A DNA stretch of 42,633 nt from Candidatus Kuenenia stuttgartensis (GTDB lineage Bacteria > Planctomycetota > Planctomycetia > Pirellulales > UBA1268), in the NCBI GenBank assembly GCA_945897435.1, contig CAMDFJ010000010.1:1-42633 (forward strand), read 5' to 3'. This document shows, piece after piece, positions 12,253-19,291 of the stretch. Made by a program: the position numbers and the translations under genes. Under the pieces are notes generated by a model. That model was not told the origin of the DNA. It saw nothing but the letters and a program-made list of their open reading frames with translations, and made no database searches. The number at the start of each line of letters is the position of its first letter. Position 1 is the stretch's first letter.

Positions 12253-13599
12253 ATGAGCCAGACTGACGGAAACTGTTTTCACCAACGCGACTCGATCGAG
12301 CGGCTGATCGGCCTTGAGCGGGAGCGGCTGGTCGACGGATTGGCCGCCGTCTTCCCCGACGCCGACCGTGTCCAGCGGCGGGATGACGTCAAGGCGATGA
12401 CGATCCGCGGCGGCTTGTCAGCGGCCGCTGCGCGACTCGCAACCATCGATCCGATCGCCTATGCCCGGACCCGCAATCATCTGGATGGCGCGGTGACGGG
12501 CCTTTCCCCCTGGATCAGGCACGGCGTCCTCTCGCTGGCCGAGGTCCGCGACCGGGCGCTGGCATTGGTGCAGGATCCCCGCGAGGCGGCGAAGCTCATC
12601 TCCGAACTGGGCTGGCGGGATTACTGGAGGCAGGTGCACCTCGCCATCGGGGATCGCATCCATGACGACATCGAACCGCCCGCCGCAGCCGCCCGCGGGG
12701 CCTCCGCTGACCGGATGCCAGAGGACGTCCTCGACGCCGCAACCGGAATGCGGTGCATCGACAGCTTCGTGCGACGGCTGCACGATCAGGGCTGGCTCCA
12801 CAACCACGAACGGATGTGGCTCGCCTCCTGGCTCGTGCACGTGCGGCGGGTCCGCTGGCAGGCCGGTGCCGACTGGTTTCTCGAACACCTGCTCGACGCC
12901 GATCCGGCGAGCAACCATCTCTCCTGGCAGTGGATCGCCGGCACGTTCTCCGCCAAGCCCTACATCTTCAACCGGGAAAACATCGAGTCGCACTCCGGAG
13001 GTGTCCACTGCAGTCCGTGCCCGCTTCTGGGCCGCTGCGACGTCGAGGGCGACTACGGACTTCTCAGCGAGCGGCTTTTCTTGACGGGCACTCCGATCCA
13101 GCGGCCTGCGCTGCGAATCCGCCCCGCTGGCCCGTCGGCAATGGCCGCTGGCCGCAGCCTGCCGTCGAAGGATGGCACGGCGATCGTCTGGCTGACGCTC
13201 GACTCGGTCAGCGATGCGAGCCCAGCGGCAAGAGCCAACCCCGACGCGACGCGGGTCTTCGTCGTCGACCCGGCCTGGCTCGCCCGGGAGCGGCCCACGC
13301 TCAAGCGGCTGGCATTCCTCTTCGAGTGCCTAGCGGAAGTGCCGCGACTCGAGGTCCATGTCGGTGATCCCGCCACTCTGCTCGCGGCTCGGGCGCGGGC
13401 GTTGGGATGCGAGAGAATCTGCCTGGCGGAAACCCCCTGCCCTGCCGTCGGCCGCGCGGCTGCGGCATTGCAAGGGACGGTCAGGATCGAACAGGTCGCC
13501 TGGCCGGAGTTTTGCGATCGTGGAACGGTGCGCGACCTCGGCCGATTCTCCCGCTACTGGTCGCAGGTCGAAGCATCGGCGTTGCGGCCGACGCGGTAG
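12253..13599 (+). CDS. Circularly permuted photolyase/cryptochrome-like flavoprotein with putative Fe-S cysteines
   Basis: A 448-residue protein. Photolyases use FAD and light to repair UV dimers; cryptochromes sense light. The usual order is antenna domain then FAD domain. Here the FAD domain is first: TGLSPWIRHGVLSLAEV (82-98), ELGWRDYWRQVH (118-129), WLHNHERMWLASWLV (181-195), LLDADPASNHLSWQW (213-227) and KPYIFNRENI (235-244). The Rossmann-like antenna domain follows at about 308-422 (TAIVWLTLDS, RVFVVDPAWL, VHVGDPATLLAARARALG). The protein ends RFSRYWSQVEASAL, resembling the FTPFWRAW linker that normally follows the antenna domain. Cys168, 253, 256 and 262 are spaced like the [4Fe-4S] ligands of FeS photolyases. 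An earlier start at 12190 is possible. The 3' end overlaps the opposing gene by 46 bp. Confidence 0.85.
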   Translation: MSQTDGNCFHQRDSIERLIGLERERLVDGLAAVFPDADRVQRRDDVKAMTIRGGLSAAAARLATIDPIAYARTRNHLDGAVTGLSPWIRHGVLSLAEVRDRALALVQDPREAAKLISELGWRDYWRQVHLAIGDRIHDDIEPPAAAARGASADRMPEDVLDAATGMRCIDSFVRRLHDQGWLHNHERMWLASWLVHVRRVRWQAGADWFLEHLLDADPASNHLSWQWIAGTFSAKPYIFNRENIESHSGGVHCSPCPLLGRCDVEGDYGLLSERLFLTGTPIQRPALRIRPAGPSAMAAGRSLPSKDGTAIVWLTLDSVSDASPAARANPDATRVFVVDPAWLARERPTLKRLAFLFECLAEVPRLEVHVGDPATLLAARARALGCERICLAETPCPAVGRAAAALQGTVRIEQVAWPEFCDRGTVRDLGRFSRYWSQVEASALRPTR

Positions 13600-14307: not shown

Positions 14308-16380
14308 TCAAAACACGCCGAGCGATTCGACCCAGCGGCAGAGCAGTTCGGCGGGCGGTCCGGCGGCTGGCAGTGGGATCGTGCCAACGGCGTACCCGGC
14401 CTGCTCGAGCCGGCGGCGGTCGGCGTCGATCCTCGACGAATCCTCGGCGCCGAACAGCACCCAGCGGCTCCGGCCGGGTTCGGCGGGTTCAATCTTCGCC
14501 TGCCGAGGCAGCGGTGAATCGAGCAGCGCCACTCCCCGCACCGCCGGTCCGAGAGCCGAGGCAGCGAGCCAGGCAAAGGCCCCCCCTGCCCCGCTGCCTG
14601 CCATCCCGATCCGGGATCGGTCGAGCGGCCGCCGCGACCGCAGCGCATCGATCGCCCGTGCAATCCCGGGGATGTCCTCGCGGGACCAGCGATCTGGATC
14701 CTCGGCCACCGGGAGAATGACTGCGATTCCATGCCTCGAGGCCGCCTCGCTCCAGGCCATCGCCAGTCGATCTGCCGCGGCGGCGACGTCCCGCGGCTGG
14801 CCTCCGGATGGTGCGACGCAATACACGAGCACGCCAAGCGGCTCATCCGTTGTCCCGGCGGGCATGACGACAATTGGCGGCCTGGCCACCTCGGGTGACT
14901 CGAGTCGTTCGATCGTGGCCGGTTCGACTGCGGCCTGGGCCGAGGGTACTTCATCGGGAATATCCACGGGCGCCGCCGCTGTCACCAAATCGAGACTCAG
15001 GGCCGCGTCGCCCCGTCGGATTCCGAGCCGAAGACTGCGGCCGATTTCACTGCCGCCAACGACGCCTTCGAGGTCGACAGCCGCATCGACGGCAATCGGT
15101 TCCGCCGCGGCATCGCCCTCCAGATCGGCGATCGACTCGATCAGGTCGCCTTGACGAATCCCCGCCTGCGCCGCCGGACCGTTTGGCCAGGGCCAGCCCA
15201 CGGTCACCCCGCGGCCCGCGGCCTTCGCTGCCGGTCGGGGATCGGGGGCCGCACCAGCGTCCGCCGGACCAGCTTCCACCGAATCGGGCCGCGTGTCGTT
15301 GGCGGCACGAACCGGAACGATGCCGAGCACCGGTCGCCGCCAGGGCGGCAGGCTGTCTGTGAGCATCGCGGAGGCGTTCACCCGCTCGATGGCCAGGCCG
15401 CGTTTTCGCTCGATGACGAGGTCGACTTTGTCACCTGCGTAGAGGGGCGCGAGCACATGCTTCAGCTGGGCGATCCGACTGACCGGCATGCCGTTGGCGA
15501 CGACCACCGTGTCGCCCGGCCTGACCCCCGCCTTCGCCGCCGGCGAACCACCGCGGACCGTCGCGATCGTGGCAGCTGCCGTGAACGGATCGCGGGACCT
15601 GTAGGTGATCCCGAGAATGCCCGGCCGCAGCGTGTCGCCCTGTTGGAGCCGCGGCAGCACGCGGAGGACGTCCTCGATCGGGACGGCGAATCCGATGCCC
15701 GAATCGTAGAGTTCGGTGCCGGTCGTCATGCCGGCCTGCTCGGCCGGCAGTGGTGCGAGGATCCCGATCAGTCGGCCTTCGATATCGATCAATGGTCCGC
15801 CATAGTTGGCCGGTGAGACCGCGGCATCGGTCTGCACCGCCCTGCCCCAGGCCCGATTGGTCGCCGAGAGGATGCCGACGGCGACGCTGGCGGTGGTGTG
15901 GCTCCATGCCCTCCCCACGGCGAGCGTCCACTGACCGATGCCGCGTTGCTCGAGGGGCGCAGGGCCGGCCGTGAACAGCGGCTCGTTGGCCGGCTCGATC
16001 CGCAGGAGCACGAGGCCCCGAGCCTGGTCGCGACCGACGGCGCGGGCGGCCAGTCGAGCGCCGGACGGCAGGACGACGATCGCGTCGGCGACATCGTCGG
16101 GCACGGCGAAGGCGGTCGTGATCACCCAGCCTTCCGGGTCGACGACGAACCCGCTGGAGGGCCCACTGGCGGCCGCGGCCTCTGCCGCACCGCCGAGGGC
16201 CGCCTCGGAGAGCGCCGTAGGCTCGATTCGCACGACCGCCGGGGCAACCCGCTCGACAGCGGCGCGAAAGGCTGCCTGCTCCTCGAGTTCAAGGCCCTCG
16301 GCCCGGCCCGGTGCCGCAACCGCCATGACGAGGCCGAGGGCCTGAAGGCAGCCTCTGAACAGCATGAATCCCGTTCTCAC
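14308..16380 (-). CDS. Pseudo-protease (HtrA-like) with two PDZ regions fused to a degenerate alpha/beta-hydrolase-like domain
   Basis: A 690-residue exported protein. The GTG at 16380 overlaps the upstream TGA (GTGA) and follows GGGAGG; a signal peptide ends near PGRAEG. Residues about 45-250 have the trypsin-like HtrA fold (SGFVVDPEGWVITTAFAV, SPANYGGPLIDIEGRLIGIL), but all three catalytic positions are lost: His is Phe91, Asp is Gly122, Ser is Tyr193. Two PDZ-like regions follow (KAGVRPGDTVVVANG; AGIRQGDLIESI). The last 200 residues resemble a dienelactone/prolyl-peptidase-type hydrolase (GVLVYCVAPSGG, RIGMAGSGAGGAF), but Gly appears to occupy the nucleophile position. It probably binds peptides or acts as a scaffold (inference). 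Its two upstream neighbours are related. Confidence 0.8.
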   Translation of the reverse strand: MRTGFMLFRGCLQALGLVMAVAAPGRAEGLELEEQAAFRAAVERVAPAVVRIEPTALSEAALGGAAEAAAASGPSSGFVVDPEGWVITTAFAVPDDVADAIVVLPSGARLAARAVGRDQARGLVLLRIEPANEPLFTAGPAPLEQRGIGQWTLAVGRAWSHTTASVAVGILSATNRAWGRAVQTDAAVSPANYGGPLIDIEGRLIGILAPLPAEQAGMTTGTELYDSGIGFAVPIEDVLRVLPRLQQGDTLRPGILGITYRSRDPFTAAATIATVRGGSPAAKAGVRPGDTVVVANGMPVSRIAQLKHVLAPLYAGDKVDLVIERKRGLAIERVNASAMLTDSLPPWRRPVLGIVPVRAANDTRPDSVEAGPADAGAAPDPRPAAKAAGRGVTVGWPWPNGPAAQAGIRQGDLIESIADLEGDAAAEPIAVDAAVDLEGVVGGSEIGRSLRLGIRRGDAALSLDLVTAAAPVDIPDEVPSAQAAVEPATIERLESPEVARPPIVVMPAGTTDEPLGVLVYCVAPSGGQPRDVAAAADRLAMAWSEAASRHGIAVILPVAEDPDRWSREDIPGIARAIDALRSRRPLDRSRIGMAGSGAGGAFAWLAASALGPAVRGVALLDSPLPRQAKIEPAEPGRSRWVLFGAEDSSRIDADRRRLEQAGYAVGTIPLPAAGPPAELLCRWVESLGVF

Positions 16381-17471
16381 GGAGCCTCCCTGGCCGCGGG
16401 CCGCGGGCCGAGATCGCATTCGACGACCTGTCCGCTGCGGACCACGGTAAAGCGGACTGGGTCACCCTCGGCGAGCCGAGCCAGAGATTGCTGGACAGCC
16501 TGACGCGAGATCACCGCACGGCCGTTGATCGCAACGAGCAGATCGTCGGGACGCAATCCGGCACGGGCGGCCGCCGAATCGGGTCGGGCCGACTCGATGA
16601 AGGGAGGCGTCTTGTCGAGCAGGTCCGGAACGAAGACCACACCCATCAGGGCAGGATCGAAAGACGCCTCGGCCGTCACGGCGCTCACCGTCGTGTTCGA
16701 GTCTCCTCCCTCGAGAATTTCCCGGCAGCCGCGGGCGACCTCTGCCGCGGGCAAGGCGTAGTTGAGCCAGACGCCGCTCGTCGTGGCCCGCAGTTCCTTG
16801 CCGAGCATGCCGATCAACCGGCCCTCCCAATCGACGAGCGCCCCACCGGCCGATCCCGGATTGTTCGTGGTGCAATCGAGAATGTAGACGTCGCCGCGAT
16901 AGACAGCCTCGTAGGCCCCCCGCCGCGCCTCGAGGGGCACGACTCCCGCCACCACGCCATGCTGCGCGCTGACCCGCTCGTCACCCACCGCGACACCGAA
17001 CAGGTTTGAGAGCGCCAGAACCCGCGTGCCGGGCGGAACGCTCCCATCTCCACCGAGTTCGAAGGCGGGCAGGTCTTCGGCCGGAATCTGCAACAGGGCG
17101 ATTTCGCGACGCGGATCGATGCCGACGAGTGTCGCCGTATACCTGCGGCCGTCATCGAGCACGCAGGTGATCTGATCGGCGTCGAGCACGGTGCTCATCA
17201 CCGTCAGGATCCGGCCATCCGGCGAGACGAGGAAGCCGGTCTGGTAGGCCTCCAGGCCGCGAATGCCGCCAGCCCCGTAGATTTTCACGACCTTACGGGC
17301 GGCCGCCGCGATCGTTTCGACGGTCGTGGCCGCAGCCGCCTTTCGTCCGGTCCCCTCGCCGAAGCAACCGCAGACAAAACTGCCTGCCAGGAGTCCGGCG
17401 AGCAGAACGCCTGCAGGCCGACTGAGTCCTGATCCGAGTCGACTCTCTTTCCAACGCGGGGATCGGATCAT
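16377..17471 (-). CDS. Catalytically degenerate HtrA-like protein with one PDZ domain, possible lipoprotein
   Basis: A 364-residue exported protein. The ATG at 17471 overlaps the upstream TGA (ATGA). The leader AGVLLAGLLAGSFVCGCFG has cysteines after the hydrophobic stretch, one in a loose lipobox, so it may be lipid-anchored. The HtrA-like domain (TGFLVSPDGRILTVMSTVLD, LVGIDPRREIALLQI, TTNNPGSAGGALVDWEGRLIGML) has Ser93 for His, Glu123 for Asp and Ala208 for the nucleophile Ser, so it cannot be a serine protease. A PDZ domain follows (ARAGLRPDDLLVAINGRAV). It is the middle of three successive HtrA-like genes and may present substrates to the active upstream protease (inference). Confidence 0.82.
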   Translation of the reverse strand: MIRSPRWKESRLGSGLSRPAGVLLAGLLAGSFVCGCFGEGTGRKAAAATTVETIAAAARKVVKIYGAGGIRGLEAYQTGFLVSPDGRILTVMSTVLDADQITCVLDDGRRYTATLVGIDPRREIALLQIPAEDLPAFELGGDGSVPPGTRVLALSNLFGVAVGDERVSAQHGVVAGVVPLEARRGAYEAVYRGDVYILDCTTNNPGSAGGALVDWEGRLIGMLGKELRATTSGVWLNYALPAAEVARGCREILEGGDSNTTVSAVTAEASFDPALMGVVFVPDLLDKTPPFIESARPDSAAARAGLRPDDLLVAINGRAVISRQAVQQSLARLAEGDPVRFTVVRSGQVVECDLGPRPAAREAP

Positions 17472-19291
17472 GGAGCATCTCCAGCGGCCAGCGAGCCAAA
17501 ACTGGCCTCGTCGATCAGGAAACTGGCGAATGCCTGGTCGCCGTGGAGCACCTCGATCGCCCCTGGAACACCGGACGGAAGGCTGCCGCCGCCTGCCGCT
17601 GGAAATGAAAACCGCACCTCGCAGGGATCGGCGTCGGGCGTGGGCCAGAGTTCCAGATTGGTGATCGTGCCGTCCGATGCGAGCATGAATCGGGCCTCGA
17701 CTCCGGCAACCGCCGACTCGAGACGATCGCCGAGCGGCGGCGGTTCCGCACCCGTCCAGGCCGCAGGATCGAGCGGGGCCTGCCCCCAGTAGGTCGTTCG
17801 CCCCAGCGGCTTCGGACCCTCGAGCAGGAGTCGTCGCCAGAGGACGAGCGCCGCCAGCAGTCCGCCACTTCCGGGCGGATTGGGGTTGGCATCGAGTTCA
17901 CCCGTCGCATCGAGCGATGTGGTGCCCGTCGGCAGGTCGATCGAAGCCCGCTGATCGGAAAGCTCGATCCGGAATCGTCCGCCGGCGGCAAGTCGGCCGC
18001 TGATCACCCACGGACCGGAGCGGCCCCGCCAGAGCCCCTCGGCGGCGAGCTTCAGAGCCAGACGATCGAGGGCCAGCGTGTTGAAGTGATGATTGACGAA
18101 TCCGACCCTGGATTCATAGAGGCCGCGGACCGCCTCTGGAAGCGACTGCTCTCTGGCGGTCTCTGGACCGCGGCTCTCCTGCTTGCCCGGACCGGGAGCC
18201 GGTGGCCCGTCGGGAGGCGGCTGACGCCCTCCATCGTTCGGATTCCTGCCGGCCACGATGGCAGCCAGTTCGGCGGCCGCATGCACGGCACCGAGTCGGA
18301 CGAGAATGTCGAACCTTCTGCCCGATCTCCGGTAGGAGAGCGGCACCCTCCAGCCGGCAGGGAGCGTGCCGAGAATGTTCTTGAACGCATTGACCGTGCG
18401 AATCGGTCGGCCGGCCAGCGAGACGATCTCGTCGTCGTATCGCAGGCCGCGGCGGTAGGCATCAGACGCCTCGAGGATGTCCGACACCACGACCCGTCCG
18501 TCCTCCGCGGTGGCGACCGTGGCCCCGAGCGTCGCATGATCGACGAGGCGGCCCGCCTTGAGGCAGCCGAGAAAGTTTCGCAGCTGGTTGGAGGAGATCG
18601 CATAGCCGACACCGACGTTGACCCGGCCCCGTTTCTCGAATGACGCCCTTCCATTGACGCCGATCAGGCGGCCTGCGGCGTCGAACAGGCCGCCGCCGGA
18701 GTTGCCAGGATTGATGGCCGCATCGACCTGCAGGCAGTCGGTGTATTCGAGGATCGTGCCCGCGGGAAACTGATACCGATGGACACCAGAAACGATCCCG
18801 GCACTGATCGAGGGGCTGAAATCTGTGGCCAGCAGAAACGGATTTCCAGCCGCGAAGCAGAAGTCGCCGACCTCCACCCGATCGCTGTCGGCCAGTTCCG
18901 CCGAGGGAAATTCGCCCTCTCCGACAAGTTTGATGAGGGCGACGTCGCCTGTCGGGTCGAGTCCGACGAGCACCGCGTCGTGGAGGCTGCCGTCGGAGAG
19001 ACCGCACTGCATCGCCACACCGGCCGGCTGGACCACATGAAAGTTGGTGAGGGCATAGCCGTCGGGTGAGATCAGTACGCCGGAACCGCCGCCCGATTCC
19101 CCCGCAAAGATCGCGATCGCTGTCCGGGCTGCGTCCCGAATCGTCGCCATTCGACTCCGCTCCGCCTCCCGCACGGTGGCCGGCAGTTCTTCTGCGGCGG
19201 CCGAGGGGGAGCGACTGCTCACTCCAGACAGGACGGCCATGCAGACGAATGCCGGCAGCCATGCCCACGGTCTCGGTGTCGGTGAAGGCAT
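17468..19291 (-). CDS. HtrA/DegP-like S1C serine protease with PDZ domain and C-terminal extension
   Basis: A 607-residue exported protease. A signal peptide covers about 1-33. The trypsin-like domain has a complete triad: His85 in GYALTNFHVV, Asp116 in DPTGDVALIKL, Ser198 in INPGNSGGGLF. A PDZ domain (about 250-330; RRGLRYDDEIVSLAGRPI) follows. A Pro/Gly-rich linker near 345-375 precedes a roughly 220-residue domain that I do not recognise (VGFVNHHFNTLALDRL, ELWPTPDADPCEVRF). HtrA proteases degrade or refold misfolded envelope proteins. It is the only active member of the three-gene series and overlaps the next gene by ATGA. It follows the NPCBM-like gene after 11 bp. Confidence 0.9.
   Translation of the reverse strand: MPSPTPRPWAWLPAFVCMAVLSGVSSRSPSAAAEELPATVREAERSRMATIRDAARTAIAIFAGESGGGSGVLISPDGYALTNFHVVQPAGVAMQCGLSDGSLHDAVLVGLDPTGDVALIKLVGEGEFPSAELADSDRVEVGDFCFAAGNPFLLATDFSPSISAGIVSGVHRYQFPAGTILEYTDCLQVDAAINPGNSGGGLFDAAGRLIGVNGRASFEKRGRVNVGVGYAISSNQLRNFLGCLKAGRLVDHATLGATVATAEDGRVVVSDILEASDAYRRGLRYDDEIVSLAGRPIRTVNAFKNILGTLPAGWRVPLSYRRSGRRFDILVRLGAVHAAAELAAIVAGRNPNDGGRQPPPDGPPAPGPGKQESRGPETAREQSLPEAVRGLYESRVGFVNHHFNTLALDRLALKLAAEGLWRGRSGPWVISGRLAAGGRFRIELSDQRASIDLPTGTTSLDATGELDANPNPPGSGGLLAALVLWRRLLLEGPKPLGRTTYWGQAPLDPAAWTGAEPPPLGDRLESAVAGVEARFMLASDGTITNLELWPTPDADPCEVRFSFPAAGGGSLPSGVPGAIEVLHGDQAFASFLIDEASFGSLAAGDAP

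Follow-up and report, generated by a model that had tools for sequence, protein, structure and literature searches.

The window, a 42,633-nucleotide stretch of DNA assigned to Candidatus Kuenenia stuttgartensis, carries on its forward strand a reading frame that runs without interruption from an ATG at 12253 to a stop codon ending at 13599 and specifies a product of 448 amino acids (Table 1). An earlier note on this DNA had proposed a photolyase whose canonical domain order is reversed within a single open frame. The reading frame, Pfam matches, profiles and structural models bore this out, and all the motifs quoted in the note lie at the positions given. Both the domain order and the two predicted folds place the FAD domain at the N terminus and the antenna domain at the C terminus of one frame. 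By 46 bases (13554-13599) the gene's 3′ end overlaps that of a pseudouridine synthase frame, which is convergent on the reverse strand and ends at 13554. Also on the reverse strand, at 14308-19291, are three consecutive genes for trypsin-like proteases, two of them with PDZ domains (HtrA-like).

Table 1. Features of the reversed-order photolyase gene and its predicted product
Feature	Residues	Position	Strand	Basis or remark
Reversed-order (Phr6-type) photolyase CDS		12253..13599	+	Open frame; full-length homologues
FAD-binding/catalytic domain	~53-285	12409..13107	+	Pfam core, residues 116-238 (12598-12966)
E118, counterpart of E274 in E. coli photolyase	118	12604..12606	+	Alignment
C168, first putative Fe-S cysteine	168	12754..12756	+	Aligned with C361 of the host FeS-BCP protein
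N184, equivalent of E. coli N341	184	12802..12804	+	Alignment; (6-4) photolyases have the catalytic His here (PhrB H366)
C253, C256, C262, other putative Fe-S cysteines (CxxCx5C)	253-262	13009..13038	+	Alignments
Interdomain linker	~286-305	13108..13167	+	Contains the model's stretch of lowest internal confidence
Antenna (Rossmann-like alpha/beta) domain	306-448	13168..13596	+	Pfam, tail profile, hhalign, tail model
RFSRYW, counterpart of the motif closing the canonical antenna	431-436	13543..13560	+	Invariant in aligned fused homologues

The N-terminal part of the protein matched the photolyase FAD-binding model, as the note had anticipated (Pfam FAD_binding_7; E = 3.8e-25, 88.9 bits). The match covers the first 127 of the 203 model positions, and the CxxCx5C segment comes next in the protein. 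The full-length protein was modelled with a pLDDT of 94.4 and a pTM of 0.92. As expected for a swapped domain order, Foldseek searches with this model aligned chiefly the FAD domain to photolyases (TM 0.3-0.5), and the tail was therefore modelled separately.

Assignment of the tail to the photolyase antenna had been made by eye. The Pfam antenna model, PF00875 (DNA_photolyase), gave an E value of 0.0089 with the whole protein and 7.4e-4 with the tail alone; at 19.9 bits the latter lies below the cut-off of 26.6 bits and is weak by itself. Because a search of PDB sequences with the tail as a single query found no photolyase, the by-eye match needed further support. We built a tail profile from an alignment of 16 homologous tails (A2). 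PF00875 matched 14 of these 16 tails (best E, 2.9e-7). Run against the PDB, the tail profile matched N-terminal antennas: that of 1owl, the Anacystis nidulans photolyase, at E = 1.4e-8 and, among others, those of the Chlamydomonas animal-like cryptochrome (7e-7) and Drosophila cryptochrome (2e-5). A profile-profile comparison with hhalign aligned the tails with six canonical antenna domains (96%; E = 4.2e-9). The 130 aligned columns begin at the first strand and extend through RFSRYW, which falls opposite PFLRNW, where the canonical antenna ends. Since the alignment spans this closing motif, the break point is clean, as had been suggested. The tail-only AlphaFold model (pLDDT 91.4) is predicted to fold as a photolyase antenna; its top 17 PDB matches were all photolyases or cryptochromes (E from 3.5e-6; TM ~0.66). 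As an internal control, the tail profile also matched ordinary antenna-then-FAD photolyases on four Synechococcus contigs (L066, L080, L087 and L089), where both domain orders occur side by side. We concluded that the family profile, hhalign, the tail model and the retention of the tail in homologues together sustain the identification of the tail as a photolyase antenna.

The FAD-then-antenna arrangement is not new. Haney et al. (2022; PMC9426592) described the reverse order in marine Synechococcus as Phr4/Phr5, encoded by two genes, and in two Cyanobium strains as Phr6, encoded by one; the main text of that paper makes no mention of Planctomycetes or Deinococcus. What we add is a wider distribution, repeated fusion or fission, and a CPD-type active site. 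Like Phr6 and Phr4/Phr5, the 448-aa protein has the FAD domain first, the antenna last and four Fe-S cysteines. C168, C253, C256 and C262 are each one residue off the Fe-S cysteines of RS9916 Phr4 (C169, C254, C257 and C263; PMC9426592), and identity with the Phr4/Phr5 pair of Synechococcus WH7803 (L089) is 40% over residues 22-440. On the strength of these resemblances, we assign the protein to the Phr6 type. It differs in belonging to a planctomycete lineage that forms its own clade in a tree of FAD domains, and in an active site that favors CPD over the proposed (6-4) substrate.

The four cysteines are invariant in alignment A1 and present in 104 to 106 of the 110 rows of a larger alignment of relatives, which includes three distant FAD-first proteins (L030, L031 and L032). 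Several residues of E. coli photolyase (numbered as in the literature, with Met1 left out) contact the CPD, namely E274, W277, N341, M345 and W384, and N378 is the flavin-facing, photolyase-type Asn. In our alignment E118, W121, N184, M188, W225 and W227 correspond to E274, W277, N341, M345, W382 and W384, respectively, and N221 corresponds to N378; N184, N221, W225 and W227 are invariant in all 110 rows. For the Trp relay (W382, W359 and W306 in E. coli), W225 and W202 are invariant, and the third position (160) is variable and has no aligned Trp. Class I CPD photolyases, such as those of E. coli and Anacystis nidulans, share their CPD-contacting residues and antenna fold with the 448-aa protein but place the antenna first, lack the Fe-S cysteines and have a third relay Trp that is unaligned here. 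E118 is replaced by Gln in 17 of the 110 rows and M188 by Leu in 19, mostly in the same sequences, which form a clade of fused homologues mostly from one planctomycete family (L011-L018, L020 and L023-L026). Because two CPD-contacting positions have changed together, substrate or activity may differ in this clade.

Sequence and model show the domain order, both folds, the cysteines, the active-site residues and the distribution of the family; from these we infer cofactor binding, chromophore, substrate and activity in the cell. The protein is probably a Phr6-type photolyase that repairs DNA with light energy, with CPDs its most likely substrate. In its N-terminal FAD domain, reduced FAD would donate an electron for the repair of UV lesions, and a [4Fe-4S] cluster on the four cysteines would probably stabilize this domain. 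The C-terminal antenna would dock on the FAD domain and, if it carries a chromophore, pass light energy on. Cyclobutane dimers are favored as the substrate by the active-site residues of CPD photolyases. In this class, UV resistance has been shown only for phr4/phr5 of Synechococcus RS9916, in which disruption of phr4 cut UV-C survival (20-30 fold for phr2, phr3 and phr4 mutants; PMC9426592). The same genes protected E. coli from UV-C about equally in the light and in the dark (PMC9426592), which leaves light-dependent repair presumptive for the class.

A sub-case of the CPD-photolyase reading is that the substrate is single-stranded DNA, by analogy with the related Phr7/NewPHL enzymes. In the FAD-domain tree of Haney et al., Phr7 is nearest to Phr4/Phr6, and single-strand CPD activity is cited there for Phr7 (PMC9426592). 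Phr7 also has its FAD domain first, as does the 448-aa protein. However, Phr7 is described in that paper as lacking the Fe-S cysteines and carrying a Z-domain in place of the antenna (PMC9426592), whereas our protein has both the cysteines and an antenna. We regard this sub-case as possible but doubtful.

Haney et al. proposed (6-4) activity for Phr4/Phr5 and Phr6 on two grounds, the Fe-S cysteines and the UV-C phenotype: loss of phr4 was harmful after UV-C and had no phenotype after UV-B (PMC9426592). The host genome encodes an FeS-BCP photolyase (L114), the group of Agrobacterium PhrB, and the four cysteines all align with its C361, C449, C452 and C465; the FAD fold is also alike. FeS-BCP proteins, however, begin with a DPRP-type domain and have a catalytic His. 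A Pfam scan of the 448-aa protein found no N-terminal DPRP-type domain, whereas L114 has one, together with an HHIQRLM motif that includes the His. The His essential for, and specific to, (6-4) repair is Asn in our protein (N184) and in every aligned relative; in PhrB, exchange of His366 for Asn, the CPD residue, abolished (6-4) repair (PMC4619345). The presence of a full FeS-BCP protein in the host also argues against a (6-4) role. The data of Haney et al. (UV-C but not UV-B; no light dependence in E. coli) are compatible with either substrate. Because Asn replaces the (6-4)-essential His, we consider CPD repair the better prediction and (6-4) repair unlikely. In addition to L114, the host has a canonical antenna-first photolyase whose gene is divided between contigs C107 and C132 of its assembly (G000); the translations of the two contigs have LKGVQSRLHWHCHFMQKLEDEPA in common. 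The Phr6-type gene is therefore one of three.

The nearest PDB sequence matches of the protein are cryptochrome DASH, which would fit a cryptochrome-like light sensor that has no repair activity. The DASH group, however, includes active single-stranded-DNA photolyases, and the lesion-contacting residues and the photolyase-type Asn (N221) are kept (N184, N221, W225 and W227 in all 110 rows), making a pure sensor quite improbable. A CPD photolyase remains the reading that we prefer.

Homologues with the same domain order, which the note had proposed searching for, were found in dozens of Planctomycetota and in other phyla. A search of 298 genomes of the same class recovered full-length fused homologues at 35-65% identity, and these recur in most of the genomes searched from the same genus and family. 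The assembly is fragmented (205 contigs) and two-gene forms occur elsewhere, but that an assembly error or frameshift joined two unrelated genes can be dismissed with near certainty, because independent fused copies at 35-68% identity, free of internal stops, recur in many genomes. In a scan of 85,000 species, the matches listed (the best 80 places, from which frequencies cannot be read) included the fused form in many Planctomycetota, in Acidobacteriaceae (Acidobacteriota) and in some Synechococcus (L082 and L097), and the two-gene form in Nostocales, Oscillatoriales, marine Synechococcus, Chloroflexota and others. Fused homologues also occur in Deinococcus, as plasmid genes that match at 41% over residues 65-444 and are annotated just as "FAD-binding domain-containing protein."

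Where two genes encode the domains, both are on one strand with the antenna gene downstream; most pairs are adjacent, and in two cases the antenna gene is 3-4 kb away. In our FAD-domain tree, the fused or split state switches at least five times; the tree is a quick one with half of its inner branches weakly supported, so the figure is approximate. The term "circular permutation" used in the note is formally right for a swap of two domains with a break in the linker. The two-gene state, though, points to a different history: because the FAD-then-antenna order recurs widely in separate genes, gene fission and fusion would be a simpler route than permutation by duplication and trimming.

In many cyanobacteria (L057-L081 and L089), one in-frame stop and a few codons separate the FAD and antenna genes. 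Since such in-frame junctions are numerous, we considered read-through or frameshifting and rejected it; the stop codons differ, and a start codon mostly follows soon after. The search's ranking of single alignments accounts for the excess of in-frame junctions, and the presence of their own start codons makes two proteins likely at these loci. Two split FAD-then-antenna homologues (L019, 1035-2427; L021, 1091-2334) have kept both domains and lost most of the Fe-S cysteines. Most of these cysteines are also absent from the FAD-first proteins L030, L031 and L032 (400-440 aa). Pfam antenna models found no match in their C-terminal regions, and hhalign related these tails to the antenna at 60%; the three are possibly Phr7/NewPHL-like, and a degenerate antenna is possible.

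A bolder composite reading is of a reversed-order, Fe-S-containing photolyase that would repair CPDs but not (6-4) products, possibly acting on single-stranded DNA. Its FAD and antenna domains would function just as well joined in one chain as apart in two subunits, and several fusions or splits (at least five changes on the tree) would have occurred during bacterial evolution. We put this composite picture forward tentatively, as plausible but somewhat short of probable.

To our knowledge, photolyases were for a long time assumed always to carry the antenna first. The reversed-order proteins form a large, poorly annotated family, encoded by one gene or two, and as such offer natural material on how antenna and catalytic domains recognize each other. 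The family also bears on whether an Fe-S cluster truly marks (6-4) activity, and, given an Asn where the catalytic His would be, the published (6-4) substrate prediction can be tested directly.
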